From: Hymenobacter aerilatus
Lineage (GTDB): Bacteria > Bacteroidota > Bacteroidia > Cytophagales > Hymenobacteraceae
Length of the DNA stretch: 64,000 nucleotides
Direction of reading: 5' to 3'
NCBI RefSeq assembly: GCF_022921095.1
Contig: NZ_CP095053.1
Location: 4,258,501-4,322,500, forward strand
Shown here: one piece after another, positions 4,710 to 58,991 of the stretch
Numbering within the stretch: the first letter of the stretch is position 1
Layout of the letters: every line of letters starts with the position of its first letter
Notes under the pieces: generated by a model
Databases searched by the model: none
Told to the model about the DNA's origin: nothing
What the model saw: only the letters and a program-made list of their open reading frames with translations
Translations under genes and position numbers: made by a program

Positions 4710-4725
4710 AGGATAAATTGTTGAA

Positions 4726-4825
4726 TGATTGAAGGTTGAAGGGTTGCTGTTGGTTTGACAGCACTAGTTGAGTTGTGGTAATCGAACGATCCAGCAATCA
4801 ACCATTCAACCTTCAATCAACTCAC
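4726..4825. repeat. intergenic TTGAA-word inverted repeat
   Basis: The left side has 'gttgaatgattgaaggttgaagggttg'-type repeats (TTGAA spaced 7-9 nt). The right side has the inverted series 'caatcaaccattcaaccttcaatcaa'. The architecture matches the GTGAA elements, but a different word is used. It fills the gap between the thiolase stop and the truA start. Confidence 0.6.
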
Positions 4826-11527: not shown

Positions 11528-11530
11528 ATT

Positions 11531-11638
11531 GTTGGGAAGCTGTTAGCGAAAGGCTGTTAGCTATTCTTTTTTATAGAAGGATTGATTTCGTCCGTTGTTG
11601 GTCGTTAGGGCTAACGACTAGCGGCTAGTAGCAAACAG
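11531..11638. repeat. intergenic GTTAG-word inverted repeat
   Basis: The left half holds agctgttagcgaaag and gctgttagcta. The right half holds gctaacgacta, gcggctagtagc and aaacagct, which pair with the left arm imperfectly. The element fills the 111-bp gap between the two Fe-S genes. It is another example of the word-based spacer architecture. Confidence 0.55.
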
Positions 11639-21842: not shown

Positions 21843-21883
21843 AGTAGTAAAAAGGTGAATCACAATTTCACCTTTTTACTACT
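21843..21883. terminator. 17-bp hairpin at the end of panC
   Basis: AGTAGTAAAAAGGTGAA (21843-21859) pairs perfectly with 21867-21883 across 7 nt. It overlaps the panC stop codon. There is no extended T run, so it may be an attenuating or mRNA-end-protecting hairpin. The stem contains the GGTGAA word. Confidence 0.6.
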
Positions 21884-29606: not shown

Positions 29607-29700
29607 ATTATATATGTATTAGCCTAGCATCAGGAATTGTCAAAAATCACCATAATTACTTATAAGCAAACAACATACACAACATCTATTTTCCTCCTAT

Positions 29701-29886
29701 ATGAAAGAACTTGGGTTGGGTCTGTTTCTACTCGGTCTGGTATCATTGGTACTCCCGCTGCTAGGCATGAAATTCATCTTTCTAACCTGGATTGAGCAAT
29801 GGGGGCCCGCTGTATCCTGGGCTATTCGAGGGGGTATTACGTTACTGGGGCTTATTTTCTACCTCAGTACCCGCAACCGGGACTAG
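29701..29886 (+). CDS. small membrane protein, 61 residues
   Basis: MKELGLGLFLLGLVSLVLPLLG forms one membrane helix, and a second helix covers GPAVSWAIRGGITLLGLIFYLS before a short charged end. Coding is supported by GC content higher than the flanking spacers, a good ATG and clean hydrophobic pattern. Similar tiny proteins are widespread in Bacteroidota without assigned function. Confidence 0.7.
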   Translation: MKELGLGLFLLGLVSLVLPLLGMKFIFLTWIEQWGPAVSWAIRGGITLLGLIFYLSTRNRD

Positions 29887-29990
29887 GTGGTGAGTTTGAC
29901 GATTTGATTGCACTTACTAGCGCAGTTTGCGCAAGCGGCGTAATCCAGAGCGTCAAACTCACTATTTCACCACCTCACCATCTCACCGTT
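29886..29990. repeat. intergenic GTGAG-word inverted repeat
   Basis: The arm GGTGGTGAGTTTGACG at the left is answered by CGTCAAACTCACT at ~29951-29963 and by the series TTTCACCACC, TCACCATC, TCACCG. An inner hairpin (gcgcagtttgcgc) lies in the spacer. It is followed directly by the gltX -7 element. Confidence 0.65.
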
Positions 29991-47820: not shown

Positions 47821-49164
47821 TTACTCAATACGCCGTTTGATAAACCAGCGGTTGTTGAGCGAAACTCCAACCTGCATCCGGATATAATTTTCCTTTACGT
47901 TGCCGCTGGGGCTATCAATAGTTACGTTGTTGTTGCCGCGCTGCCCATAGGTAAAGGCCAAACTCAGGGTAGTAGCATCCAGCGGTGTAGCGCCGGGTAT
48001 CGGGAAGCCAAAGCCCCAACTTACGGCCCGGTCGTAGAGACGCTGACCACCGGGACGGTAGGGAACCTCCGCGAGGCTGATGCCGGCCCGATACACCACG
48101 CGCTTAAAGTAGTTGTCGACGTTAGTGGGGTCTGGCGCCCACTCGCCGCCTAGTCCTACCCGATATGTGTCGCTCAGCGGCACGTTGGCAGCGCTGGTTA
48201 CGCCCGCCAGCGTTGGCACTTGAAAGCGCGACCATTGCTGCCGGGCCAGGTCTAGGCTGGTACTCCAGTTGCGGTTGTTATCGAGGCTGATGCCGAACTG
48301 TGCTAGGGTAGGCACACGGGCTTCGCCTTTCTGACCGCTCACCAATACAATGCTGGTGTTAGCAATAGGCGCGCCGGTCAACGTGCGCTGCTCCTGCGTC
48401 ACATCGTACGTGCCGTTCAGGTTGGACTGAAAGCCATATACGGCTGCCAGGTTGTAGTTGAGCTTGTCCGTTAGCTTGCTGCGGTAGTGTGCACCAGCTC
48501 GGAAAATAAAATCTGAATAGCGGACGTGCTCTAGGCGCACAGTGCTCTGTGCGTTTGAATTGTCGCCGGAGGTTATAACCGTGGTGCCGGAAGTAGCGTC
48601 GATAGTGCCAAATACATAAGAGGCCGTGCCCCCTACTGTCAGGCCTTTCGCCAGACGGAAGGCGTGCGCCATATACGCCTCCGACAGCCCACCATCACCT
48701 GTAAAGCGGTTGATGGATTGCGCGTTGGGGTCGCCCGCTACGCTGTTGCTTGTGGTGCTCTCGTAGTCGACGGCCGTATAGGGCCGCAAGCCGGCCGCCG
48801 CTGCCCAGCGCTTGGAGATGGGAAAAGCCAGTGCCAGGTAACCTAGCGTGCCGCTACCATCGCGCTGCGAATTGGTGCGGTTGCTGATGGTTTTGAACTG
48901 CCCGGTTACGGCTACCTCGTAGGTAGTGCGAGAGGTGTAGTACACCAGAGCCGGGTTCAGCTCATTCACATTGGTACCGTTGGGCGCGGCCAGCCCTACC
49001 CCTCCCATTGCCATTTGCCGGACTCCACCCGTGTTGATATAGGCGTCGCCCAGACCCAGGCGCGAATAAGGCGAGTTTCCCAGACCTTGTGCATGCGTTT
49101 GTGCAGCGCTCAGCCACCCTAGCAGCGACAACCCGGCCAGGCCGGCAAATTTAGTTTTCAACAT
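47821..49164 (-). CDS. outer-membrane beta-barrel protein (OmpP1/FadL-like)
   Basis: The 447-residue product has a signal peptide cleaved at THAQ. The start of the mature part, GLGNSPYSRLGLGDAYINTGGVRQMAMGGVGLAAPNGTNVNELNPALVYY, is characteristic of a Bacteroidota OmpP1-like family. The rest consists of alternating amphipathic strands ending in an aromatic-rich last strand (KENYIRMQVGVSLNNRWF). Cargo unknown. Its start overlaps the end of coaX by 14 nt. Confidence 0.85.
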   Translation of the reverse strand: MLKTKFAGLAGLSLLGWLSAAQTHAQGLGNSPYSRLGLGDAYINTGGVRQMAMGGVGLAAPNGTNVNELNPALVYYTSRTTYEVAVTGQFKTISNRTNSQRDGSGTLGYLALAFPISKRWAAAAGLRPYTAVDYESTTSNSVAGDPNAQSINRFTGDGGLSEAYMAHAFRLAKGLTVGGTASYVFGTIDATSGTTVITSGDNSNAQSTVRLEHVRYSDFIFRAGAHYRSKLTDKLNYNLAAVYGFQSNLNGTYDVTQEQRTLTGAPIANTSIVLVSGQKGEARVPTLAQFGISLDNNRNWSTSLDLARQQWSRFQVPTLAGVTSAANVPLSDTYRVGLGGEWAPDPTNVDNYFKRVVYRAGISLAEVPYRPGGQRLYDRAVSWGFGFPIPGATPLDATTLSLAFTYGQRGNNNVTIDSPSGNVKENYIRMQVGVSLNNRWFIKRRIE

Positions 49165-49894
49165 TATGCACTAATATTCGATGGAGCCCAAGTAGCACAA
49201 GCTCCGGAATGGCAAAGATATAGCCTTTCAGCCGTGGTTGAAAAAAACCGGCATCACCACCTGTTAGCAACACTGCTAACCCAGGATATTGGGCACGGTA
49301 GGTATCAATGAGGCCGTTCACCTCGGCGGCAGCCCCGTTTAGCACGCCGCTCCGAATAGCCGACTGCGTATCGTCTCCAATCAAGGGTACGGCCACCGAG
49401 GGAGCGTTGGGCACTTCCAGTAACGGCAGGCGGCCCGTAAACGTATGCAGCGCCTGAAACCGCAGCCGCAGCCCTGGCCCAATGCTTCCCCCCCGAAAGG
49501 TGTGGCCACCCTCTACAAAGTCGCACTTAATGGCAGTGCCAGCATCAATCACCAGTACATCCTGCTTGGGGTGCAGCCACGCTGCCCCTACTGCTGCGGC
49601 TAGCCGGTCGGCGCCTAATGTGTGAGGCGTAGCGTAGCCATTGCGCAATGGGAGTGGTGTGGTAGCAGGTGCCAGCTCTAGCACGTGCCCCGGTATAAGT
49701 GGTCGGAGCGCAGCGGCCCAGTCAGTAGTAGGCTCTGCCACCGAGGCTACAATAGCATGAGTAGGCTGATGCAGTTGCACCAATGCTAACACTTCGGCCA
49801 ACGTTTGTCCCGTCGCCCGATACCGCAACTCATTGCCCTCAAAGTACCCGTACTTCACGGCCGTGTTGCCAATATCGAGGGTAGCGGTACACAT
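49151..49894 (-). CDS. coaX: type III pantothenate kinase
   Basis: The 247-residue ASKHA kinase has DIGNTAVKYG (phosphate-1), VIDAGTAIKCDFV (aspartate base), and GGSIGPGLRLRFQALHTFTGRLP, GGDAGFF (adenosine motif). It makes 4'-phosphopantothenate, the first step of CoA synthesis, and so is downstream of panCD functionally. First gene of the envelope operon to ppiD; CoaX-OMP-LptC order is a typical Bacteroidota arrangement (from memory). Confidence 0.95.
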   Translation of the reverse strand: MCTATLDIGNTAVKYGYFEGNELRYRATGQTLAEVLALVQLHQPTHAIVASVAEPTTDWAAALRPLIPGHVLELAPATTPLPLRNGYATPHTLGADRLAAAVGAAWLHPKQDVLVIDAGTAIKCDFVEGGHTFRGGSIGPGLRLRFQALHTFTGRLPLLEVPNAPSVAVPLIGDDTQSAIRSGVLNGAAAEVNGLIDTYRAQYPGLAVLLTGGDAGFFQPRLKGYIFAIPELVLLGLHRILVHNVEN

Positions 49895-49895
49895 G

Positions 49896-50028
49896 GAGGT
49901 GAAATAGTAAGCGGTGAAATAGTGAGCAGTGAAATGGTGAGTTGATATTCCGTTACAGGGACGAATCGCGCAAACGGAATCAGTAGAACATCAAACTCAT
50001 CATTTCACAATCTCACAACTCACCTCTA
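49896..50028. repeat. intergenic GTGAA/GTGAG-word inverted repeat
   Basis: The left arm is a run of near-repeats: gaggtgaaatagtaag, cggtgaaatagtgag, cagtgaaatggtgagttgat. The right arm carries the inverse: atcaaactcatcatttcac, aatctcacaactcacct. Each word is 7-9 nt. The central part has a separate hairpin (attccgttac ... gcaaacggaat). It fills the spacer before coaX and is the clearest member of the group. Confidence 0.7.
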
Positions 50029-50058
50029 AGAGCCCCGCTGTTGTCAGGGGGTTGCGTG

Positions 50059-51858
50059 CTACATAAAGTATTTCAGGCGGATAACCTCTTTTTCCGTCAG
50101 GAAGCGCCACTTGCTGCGGGGCAGGTCCTTTTTGGTGAGGCCAGCGTACTGCACGCGGTCCAGCGTGACTACCTCGTAGCCTAGGTGTTCAAAGATGCGG
50201 CGCACAATGCGGTTACGCCCCGTGTGTAGCTCAATGCCAACAAAATGTGCATTGCCGGCTACCACGGCTACATCGTCTACCTCTGCTTTGCCATCTTCCA
50301 GCTCCAGGCCTTCTGAAATGCTGCGCAGGTCAGCTTCCGTAAGTGGCTTGTCCAGTTCTACCTGATAAATCTTCTTGTTCTTGTTGGAAGGGTGCGAAAG
50401 CTTCTGCGCTACTTCACCGTCGTTGGTGAAAAGCAGCAGACCCGTCGTGTTGCGGTCGAGGCGGCCTACTGGGAAAATGCGTTCCTTGGAAGCACCTGCC
50501 ACCAGATCCATTACCGTTTTACGGCCTTCCGGGTCATCGGTGGTGGTGATGAAATCCTTGGGCTTGTTCAGCAGCACGTACACCAGCTTCTCGCGGTTGA
50601 GGTTGGTTTTGCCGTACTGCACCGTATCCGATGGCTGCACCTGGTAGCCCATTTCGGTTACTACCTCTCCATTCACCCGAATTTCGCCAGCAGCAATCAG
50701 CGCATCGGCTTCCCGGCGCGAGCAGATGCCCGCGTTGGCGATGTAGCGGTTCAACCGAATTAACTCCGCCCCAAACTCCTCCTCGTTGCGACGGCGCTTG
50801 TTACCACGGTTCGGGTCCTTTTCGTAGTGTTTCAGGTTTTTGTAGTCGGGTGCTTGACCAGCTACTTCGCCGCGCTTTAATTTACCAGCACGGTGCGCAT
50901 TGGCATCGGGCGCAGACTTTTTATCGGTGGCAGTGTCACTACGACGCTCACGCGTTTCGTAGGCGCGGTTAGCCCGCGTCTCGCTAAAGCTGCGGCTACC
51001 TCCCCCAAAGTTACGTTCTGCCCGATCACCATATGACGGACGACCTTCGCGCTGCCTACCGAAGTCACGCTTGCCGAAATCACCCGTTGATTTTCGTTCG
51101 CCGTAGCCACTCCGATTGTCGCGGCGGTCTTCGCCACCGCGCTCAAACGCACGGGTAGGCCGCTCACCACGCGTATTGCCCTCTTCAGGCTTGCCGCGGT
51201 AGTCGAACGGACGTGCTGCCCGGATGGGACGGTCAGTTCCCGTTGCCTCGTTGCGCTCAGGGCGGGTAGGCGCTTCCGGCTGTGGCCGGTAAGCAGAAGC
51301 TTCCGCATTGGGGTTCACCTTCTGAAACTTACGGTTTCGCTCACCCGGCGCGCCGCGTGGTACCGTAGGTTTACCTTCCTGACGATAGGGCTGGCCACTC
51401 CAGGTTTCTCTTGATTCGTAGGCGCGCACGGGCCGGTTGTCGGGCTGCTCCCGCTGGCTGTAGCCCTCATTGCGGCTGCTGCCAGCGCGGCGGTCATTAC
51501 CACCGAAATTTCGGTCTGTGCCAGCGCGGCGGTCGGCACCGCCAAAATCTCTACCCCCACCCGGGCGCCGGTCATTACCACCAAAGCCACGGCCACCGCT
51601 GTTGCGGTCTTCCCCGAAGCTACGGTTGCCAAAGTCCCGGCTGCCACCAGGGCGGCTACCCTGCCCCTGTGGCCGTCCAAAGGATGGACGAGAAGTAAAG
51701 CCTTCGCCCCGACGCTCATTGTCCCGGCCGAAGCTATTACCAGTAGGGCGGTCGTTGCGACGCGGTTTTGCATCGCGGCCGCCCTCCCTGTTATTGTCGT
51801 TGAAAGAAGTGCGACCACGACGGCCGGCGGGTTCATCGGAGAAGTGTTTCTTGCCCAT
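50059..51858 (-). CDS. RluB/RsuA-type pseudouridine synthase with long RG/D-rich disordered N-terminus
   Basis: Start chosen at ATG 51858 (MGKKHFSDEPAGRRGRTSFN); an in-frame ATG at 51897 is possible. Of 599 residues the first ~340 are low complexity, dominated by R, G, D, N and F with near-repeats such as RRAGTDRNFGGND and RDFGGADRR. The S4 domain (IRLNRYIANAGICSRREADALIAAGEIRVNG) and the catalytic domain follow, with FPVGRLDRNTTGLLLFTNDGE holding the catalytic Asp. The enzyme modifies 23S rRNA. The RGG-like head resembles RNA-binding, condensate-forming tails and is far longer than in the Proteobacterial enzyme. Confidence 0.92.
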   Translation of the reverse strand: MGKKHFSDEPAGRRGRTSFNDNNREGGRDAKPRRNDRPTGNSFGRDNERRGEGFTSRPSFGRPQGQGSRPGGSRDFGNRSFGEDRNSGGRGFGGNDRRPGGGRDFGGADRRAGTDRNFGGNDRRAGSSRNEGYSQREQPDNRPVRAYESRETWSGQPYRQEGKPTVPRGAPGERNRKFQKVNPNAEASAYRPQPEAPTRPERNEATGTDRPIRAARPFDYRGKPEEGNTRGERPTRAFERGGEDRRDNRSGYGERKSTGDFGKRDFGRQREGRPSYGDRAERNFGGGSRSFSETRANRAYETRERRSDTATDKKSAPDANAHRAGKLKRGEVAGQAPDYKNLKHYEKDPNRGNKRRRNEEEFGAELIRLNRYIANAGICSRREADALIAAGEIRVNGEVVTEMGYQVQPSDTVQYGKTNLNREKLVYVLLNKPKDFITTTDDPEGRKTVMDLVAGASKERIFPVGRLDRNTTGLLLFTNDGEVAQKLSHPSNKNKKIYQVELDKPLTEADLRSISEGLELEDGKAEVDDVAVVAGNAHFVGIELHTGRNRIVRRIFEHLGYEVVTLDRVQYAGLTKKDLPRSKWRFLTEKEVIRLKYFM

Positions 51859-52029
51859 AGTTGCAAGGATTAGCGCCGTATCGCTACGGTGCGACATGAA
51901 AAAATCAATAGTTGATAGTAAACTGAGACTCCCAACACCTAGCCTCAGAAAACAGTGCCCGGACCGGCGGTCGGGCGCTTTGCAGCTTCCAACCAACCCG
52001 CCCGGGCACATTCAAATCGTCGGCTACCG

Positions 52030-58289: not shown

Positions 58290-58493
58290 TAGTTATTTAG
58301 GTACAGTAAAACCGTGCTGATCCTTTATCTAAAAAACTGTCAAGGATGAAATCAGATGGAGTGAATGATACACAAGCTAGAGTAAACGGAGATGATACAG
58401 TTTGTATCCGTTGAGCTGTAGTTATCAATTGCATTACTGTGCCTTTGAATGCGCTCAGTGGAAAGAAATAGTATACAGGCTAAGGGAGTTTGC
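58290..58493. other. gene-free AT-rich spacer, proximal part
   Basis: No coding ORF of credible composition and no RNA gene recognised. It contains only scattered single TGTA-type words. Confidence 0.5.
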
Positions 58494-58539
58494 ACCCTAC
58501 CCTACCCTACCCTACCCTACCCTACCCTACCCTACCCTA
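58494..58539. repeat. tandem ACCCT pentamer repeat (nine units)
   Basis: Nine perfect ACCCT units from 58494 to 58538 plus one A. The minus strand reads (AGGGT)n, with nine GGG runs separated by TA, enough for one or two intramolecular G-quadruplexes. Simple pentamer repeats of this length are prone to slippage, so unit number may vary between strains. It lies in the gene-free stretch upstream of the DUF2939-like gene. Confidence 0.9.
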
Positions 58540-58991
58540 TACCATGCTTCATGACTCTCAATTAGGTCATCGCCTGATAATAAACTCTTGCCTTATAAGA
58601 GAATTTGAGGTTCACCACACTATAGCTGAACAGCGACAGCAGGTCACTTTATCTATGCGTGGTAGTGCCAGCCTTCTGGATAGCCAATCAAAATGACATT
58701 CGGTTTGTGTATATACTATTGCGTACTGTGAGTTTAGAGTTGATCTTGTAGATAGTGTACTCAAGTAGCACGCTCCAGTCAGTGCGAGAAACCTGCGTAG
58801 AAAAGCTTTCAAAGCAACGAGCGGTAGCGGCACATAGGTTGCCTCAGTTACAGGGAGGTGGGATAGGTTAGAGCTGCTAAGGAAATACTTGATACCAGCA
58901 GTCCTTTCTCAATAGCGTATGTCATTGCATCTTCTTACTCCTGCCTTTCTATATGACCCGTCTTTTCAGTTTGTTTATAGAATACTCTACC
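58540..58991. other. gene-free spacer, distal part
   Basis: About 450 bp without a supported gene; short ORFs on both strands (for example 58612-58833 minus) have no family features. The last part must hold the promoter of the DUF2939-like gene, but no clean TAnnTTTG is visible. Confidence 0.5.

Follow-up and report, generated by a model that had tools for sequence, protein, structure and literature searches.

Why should the spacer upstream of a pantothenate kinase gene be an inverted repeat whose arms are built from short repeated words, and what is it that such a site retains? The spacer in question lies in the genome of Hymenobacter aerilatus (contig NZ_CP095053.1), within a stretch of 64,000 nucleotides (positions 4,258,501 to 4,322,500) that was analysed as a whole and is here called the window. 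Intergenic arrays of heptamers have been reported since 1990 (Mazel 1990, as referenced in PMC2670836), and the literature, as excerpted, calls their role unknown or speculative; statements on published repeats below likewise refer to excerpts of the papers cited.

Results

The element occupies positions 49896-50028 of the window, between coaX, which encodes a type III pantothenate kinase (49151-49894, minus strand; Pfam PF03309, E 5.7e-39), and a gene with S4 and RNA pseudouridylate synthase domains (50059-52011, minus strand; Pfam PF01479 and PF00849). As the initial annotation had proposed, it is an inverted repeat with word-built arms: the left arm (49898-49944, plus strand) is a run of GTGA words at 8/7-nt spacing arranged in three 15-nt units, with 93% identity to the first unit in the second and 73% in the third; the right arm (49994-50024, minus strand) consists of TCAC words. 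The central region (49945-49993) holds an inner palindrome, ATTCCGTT/AACGGAAT, and then AGAACATCAAAC, which runs into the right arm; this is a type A core (see below) by eye, and the core-class regular expression, which permits substitutions only and no gaps, did not class the coaX element as A in any of three species. Six inverted word pairs give several pairing registers, so that the alternative hairpins anticipated in the initial annotation are available, and the element folds far more stably than shuffled sequence (z -7.2 and -4.6 on the two strands). An Rfam scan of the window at the gathering threshold matched three tRNAs and no other RNA family. Outside the element, the stretch that follows the stop codon of the pseudouridine synthase gene (50025-50058) carries a GC-rich hairpin, which can be made out by eye in many of the relatives inspected, including some with a short spacer or without a word element.

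The coaX spacer also holds an element in the two relatives used for comparison throughout, G016 and G055, which are 87% identical over the coaX region. Across 37 coaX loci (the best 30 from 120 genomes plus seven more, two of which are species already counted), the spacer gave z < -3 in 26, with palindromes of several unrelated kinds, while four spacers of 52-57 nt had no strong fold.

The same word had been noted at four other places in the window, and it is present at all of them, in differing amounts. The element at 1927-2025 (1927-2021 as first delimited) has word-built arms and no recognised core; by eye, G016 has a type A-like element in the orthologous spacer, and G055 a degenerate type B. 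At 29886-29990 lies a type A element with a single GTGA in its left arm, where G016 and G055 have more words; the arms of the G055 orthologue are perfect over 36 nt. The hairpin at 312-383 is perfect over 29 nt, has two GTGA words per arm and, with its A-tract and T-tract, looks by eye like a two-way terminator. That at 21843-21883 is a 17-nt perfect hairpin that contains the word once per arm and is not a word array; the matching spacer of G016 holds a word-armed type B element. Over both strands, the folds of these four gave z values from -3.2 to -15.6. Two further elements in the window use other words: an inverted array of TTGAAGG words at 4710-4825, and an AGCTGTT element at 11528-11638 with a weak fold (z -2.1 to -3.0), at whose site G016 has a CATGCTGAGC palindrome. 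A CCCTA pentamer array lies at 58489-58540 within a predicted spacer of ~2.5 kb, and long predicted spacers of G016 (L102:12153) and G055 (L106:16587) have TAGGG/CCCTA arrays too.

The GTGA words are concentrated between genes. In a sample of 864 kb (the window plus 40 stretches of 20 kb, with 683 predicted genes), chains of at least three GTGA words at 7/8 spacing on either strand numbered 32 in intergenic and 0 in coding sequence, and the reversed word AGTG under the same chain criterion gave 0 and 0; because gene calls came from a simple codon-usage script, spacer borders are approximate. When all 256 tetramers were ranked by counts taken on the plus strand within spacers, GTGA (17) came first and TCAC (14) second, with TGAA (6) next. 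In the whole genome (5.28 Mb, 3 contigs) the pattern GTGAN(3-4)GTGAN(3-4)GTGA had 209 matches versus 6 for the pattern read backward; among the matches listed, steps are mostly 8 nt and some 7 nt, with variable letters inside the word. Chained words (at least three) were found in 26 of 542 spacers of at least 30 nt: 19 of 365 co-directional, 6 of 80 convergent and 1 of 97 divergent. With smaller samples of six more species, partly orthologous sequence around coaX, the counts became 31/675, 7/146 and 2/165, so that divergent spacers are weakly avoided (2/165 vs 38/821). Two chains in the added species fell in predicted coding sequence, both in G109 (2 of its 10 GTGA chains). In the 19 co-directional spacers, the outermost chained word lay within 15 nt of the upstream stop in nine (median 35 nt) and within 15 nt of the downstream start in nine (median 19 nt).

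In a wider search, the strict pattern occurred in 60 of the 150 family genomes, and two genera account for almost all of the matches; the control was zero in most genomes, its highest counts being 16 (G140) and 5 (G172 and G193). Among phylum genomes it was found in 13 of 395, this genome included, and a viral collection gave 3 matches of one 20-nt pattern. A looser genus-wide count is unreliable in some species, where the reversed control was equal or higher (G058, 100/77 vs 99/75; G070; G086). The initial annotation would have fallen had such words not been enriched in intergenic regions elsewhere in the genome or in related species; they are enriched in the one and present in the other, and the GTGA-word phenomenon is real and wider than first noted.

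Words were chained in both arms in 37 element copies. The tip of an element often carries a further palindrome, and two families of such cores were recognised by eye. Core A reads GTGAGTTTGAYGTTCTG ... often TTGCGC ... CAGAACRTCAAACTCAC; core B reads TGTCATCCTGAGC ... GAAGGACCTT ... plus complement, spans ~100 nt and occurs also without GTGA words; some elements have no recognised core. Beyond core B, further palindromes are present at several loci of this genome, for example CATGCTGAGCTTGTCGAAGCATCTC.

The words themselves are not always GTGA. A word-blind scan for inverted tandem arrays of period 5-13, from which low-complexity segments of sub-period 5 or less were removed, found 26 arrays in 983 spacers of six species, with a best period of 7 in 10 and of 8 in 16; none had a best period of 6 or of 9-13, period 5 being unreportable because of the filter, and the same scan of shuffled spacers found none. 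Without the inversion requirement, pentamer arrays do occur. The vocabularies, labelled by eye, are GTGARNTD, AGCTGTT, TTGTCAG, TTGGTTT, TTAATTC, GAGGAAT, GGGTCTTG, GAGTAACT and ATTTAACC. A search for AGCTGTT was positive in 52 of the 150 family genomes, no genome having more than 1 control match, and its abundance does not track that of GTGA: G010 has 0 strict GTGA matches, and 38 and 59 AGCT matches. AGCT is itself palindromic, and some AGCTGTT arrays match both strands at one place (G012:C3:332493, G000:C1:3512913; G000 is the present genome). Two genomes nearly free of GTGA gave arrays in 1 of 143 (G031, GAGGAAT) and 0 of 92 (G102). The view that a single vocabulary is involved was dropped once the others turned up; the class is defined by architecture, not by one word. 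An autocorrelation averaged over hairpin spacers was less informative than the array scan: its signal was weak, and periods 3 and 4 scored no lower than 8.

Orthologous spacers were compared next. For the 26 GTGA sites of the sample, G016 yielded both flanks in 25 cases and G055 in 17 (the whole-genome flank search omitted the window sites at 29607 and 49895, found separately, and at 314, with flanks outside the stretches). At least two chained GTGA words were present in the orthologous spacer at 23 of 25 sites in G016 and 15 of 17 in G055, where a zero-length result at L097:13423 was dropped from the count; at three or more words the figures were 22/25 and 11/17. Control window spacers without such words had an element in 1 of 29 (G016) and 0 of 22 (G055), by the stricter criterion of at least three words or core A. 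Of the two exceptions in G016, L202 holds what by eye is a type A-like element lacking chained words, and L200 an inverted GGGTCTTG array; in G055, L212 has a degenerate B and L182 a palindrome of an unrelated kind. At GTGA site L047 the G016 counterpart is a GGGTCTTG array.

Within occupied spacers, words are permuted between orthologues, and the palindromic core is swapped at three sites: in the order this genome, G016, G055, the cores are B, A and B at L088:15777; B, A and not found at L088:16602; and A, A (by eye) and B at L091:181. For 12 non-GTGA sites, hand-picked by eye, the spacer was found in G016 for 12 and in G055 for 11. The vocabulary in a relative was clearly different at 3 of the 12 (4710 in the window, L037 and L096:4913), weakly different at 3 whose own words are few or mixed (11528 in the window, L095 and L100), kept at 5 and ambiguous at 1. 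At 4710-4825 the TTGAAGG words of this genome correspond to TGATG in G016 and, in G055, to TTGGTTT, whose arms are perfect over 28 nt. At L037, where this genome has TTGGTTT, the relatives have AGCTGTT, with arms perfect over 32 and 27 nt. Sites may also be nearly unchanged, L096:4913 differing from G016 at 2 of 101 nt.

Arms were more similar to their own partner arm than to arms of other loci in 28 of 37 elements (p=4e-5), and orthologous arms were somewhat more alike than arms of other loci (17/27, p=0.02). Partner arms showed no excess likeness over the orthologous arm (14/27, p=0.5), and the case for arm-to-arm copying therefore rests on the elements with perfect arms. One of these, at G016 L131, has arms that match perfectly over 49 nt, with a single additional word to one side. 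Also in G016, the contig ends at the end of L147 and the start of L124 are complementary over 77 nt; they are probably the two arms of a single perfect palindrome at which the assembly broke. Such cases suggest that arms are repeatedly re-matched and then decay. In three copies B follows directly after the A stem (..GTTCTG|TCATCC..), on one side at L046:16571 and on both sides at G016 L213 and L138, as if B had been inserted at the tip of A. A chimera at G016 L373 has GGGTCTTG words to the left and TCAC words to the right of a B core. A target-site duplication was seen at no pair of empty and filled sites, the short coaX spacers (G030, G037, G092 and G102) being too diverged to show one, and insertion is something that we infer from these junctions.

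Discussion

The reading that we favour, with confidence and doubt about evenly balanced, is that these elements are sequence-tolerant palindromic spacers, kept by place and changed by slippage, arm copying and nested insertion. What is retained would not be a sequence but a spacer able to form a hairpin (mostly ~70-250 nt among the cases examined), placed where one is tolerated and rarely in a divergent gap that holds only promoters. The arms would change as word units are added or lost; copying of one arm from the other within the hairpin would re-match them; and a new palindromic repeat, inserting at the tip or recombining with the element, would replace the text as the old arms decayed. Copies furnished with an A-tract and a T-tract probably serve as two-way transcription terminators as well, and the class overall gives no indication of working through its sense RNA. 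We infer both the function of the class and the route of replacement. That relatives at some sites have a hairpin in the same gap but built from different words suggests that text matters less than shape or place. Transfer of the locus from another strain by ordinary recombination would look the same as replacement of a vocabulary. Re-occupation of a site by an unrelated palindrome is partly to be expected, because strong hairpins of any kind are common in this genome: z < -4 was found in 148 of 390 spacers of 60-300 nt (54/64 convergent, 89/271 co-directional and 5/55 divergent).

Alternatively, one could regard the elements as mRNA hairpins under selection, serving as intrinsic terminators, in 3'-end protection or in attenuation between co-directional genes. 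This is possible, if doubtful. Their presence in co-directional and convergent spacers but rarely in divergent ones would agree with it, as would the A-tract/stem/T-tract arrangement seen by eye in several type B copies and at 312-383. The motif TAnnTTTG, which we take to be the -7 box of Bacteroidota promoters, was found in the last 100 nt of 5 of 19 word spacers vs 27 of 300 others (co-directional, this genome; small numbers). For the hairpins of cyanobacterial short tandemly repeated repetitive (STRR) sequences, a part in transcript stability, coupling or termination has been suggested (PMC2670836). However, type A copies were seen by eye without T-tracts, the four short coaX spacers lack a strong hairpin, and among 29 co-directional elements (2 of 31 having been dropped for length) the sense RNA was the more stable in 11, with a median of +1.6 kcal/mol and p=0.05 in the wrong direction. 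With no bias toward the sense RNA, the class as a whole lacks support for a role at the RNA level alone.

It is improbable, to our minds, that a cellular process keeps the sites filled with inverted 7-8 nt word arrays and rewrites their text from a small set of vocabularies; were this so, site and shape would be inherited while the sequence was overwritten. Neither Y1 transposase nor RVT_1 reverse transcriptase, the two enzyme families searched for, accounts for such rewriting.

We think it quite improbable that the arms are arrays of binding sites for a protein that reads the words. The regular 7-8 nt spacing and the recurrence of one word at many loci invite the idea, and there is precedent in that CspB is cited as a binder of heptamer repeats, one protein per heptamer, and that a binding-site role was proposed for the TAACTGA repeats, with S1, Csp or CsrA proteins as candidates (PMC4679880). 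Yet the words stand in both arms in opposite orientation, have variable letters inside them and in some cases give way to an unrelated word at the same site in relatives; because they can be replaced wholesale, they are poor candidates for sequence-specific binding sites.

Very unlikely, too, is a REP/REPIN-like family moved by a RAYT, that is, a Y1 transposase. REP/REPIN/BIME and MITE are dispersed non-coding palindromes between genes, with a RAYT in the genome as a feature of REP/REPIN and a target-site duplication as a feature of MITE. The present elements resemble them as dispersed intergenic palindromes in many copies, patchy across species, but their arms are word arrays, no target-site duplication was found, and Y1_Tnp (PF01797), which a Pfam search matched in 83 of 120 genus genomes, had no match in this genome or in the word-rich G013, G014, G029, G049 and G050; mobilisation by a RAYT is for that reason disfavoured. 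Scarcely credible, finally, is a DRT10-like origin, in which a reverse transcriptase akin to telomerase would write the words from short RNA templates: short-period repeats with several 'templates' do recall DRT10, which makes tandem-repeat DNA from varied templates (9-nt units in one system), but the DRT10 products are cDNA and not chromosomal spacers, their entry into the chromosome is not stated in the excerpted text (PMC12632851), and a reverse transcriptase writer finds no RVT_1 (PF00078) match in this genome or in the likewise word-rich G016, G001, G002, G004, G013, G014 and G020, the 120-genome search of the genus having matched 24 only, with one Pfam model that could miss a divergent enzyme.

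The initial annotation knew of no described repeat class with this design, which was too strong because relatives had already been described in Xanthomonas and among cyanobacterial STRR. The Xanthomonas GGGAATC repeats are perfect or heterogeneous heptamers, (GGGANTN)n, reported in 2015. Two arrays in opposite orientation stand close together in 70 and 75 cases, most of which occupy the same gene gap in two species but vary extensively in length and sequence (PMC4692102). The elements described here share with them short words, a mostly intergenic position, many loci and opposed arrays in one spacer, as well as persistence in the same gene gaps of sister species while length and sequence vary. 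They differ in that their words are GTGARNTD, AGCTGTT and others rather than GGGANTN, that GTGA words are mostly 8 nt, and that they come in several coexisting vocabularies, which can differ from relative to relative at one site; the Xanthomonas repeats have one G-rich vocabulary, discussed as a quadruplex former, and central cores go unmentioned in the excerpts (PMC4692102).

Cyanobacterial STRR are 7-bp words between genes that can fold into intergenic hairpins (PMC2670836), three such heptamers having been reported in Calothrix (PMC2670836, PMC4692102). The GTGA elements are similarly intergenic, dispersed over many loci and hairpin-capable, but we have not filed them as STRR because that class has units of exactly 7 nt, and GTGA steps are mostly 8 nt (several of the other vocabularies are best at 7); STRR are moreover cyanobacterial, and the excerpted accounts make no mention of word replacement at fixed sites (PMC2670836, PMC4692102). 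The TAACTGA repeats, found in some Bacteroidetes together with other heptamers, are likewise tandem, mostly intergenic and in many cases near start codons; they are direct repeats of one fixed word, with one inverted case in the main genome (PMC4679880, as excerpted). In the literature searched, subscription papers lying outside it, several vocabularies with one architecture that interchange at the same sites were not described.

In these genomes several vocabularies have a period and an architecture in common, and which of them a site holds can differ between orthologues. The restriction of inverted arrays to units of 7-8 nt constrains models of array growth. The differences between orthologous sites make it testable whether sequence, hairpin or site is retained, and by what means words are copied from locus to locus.
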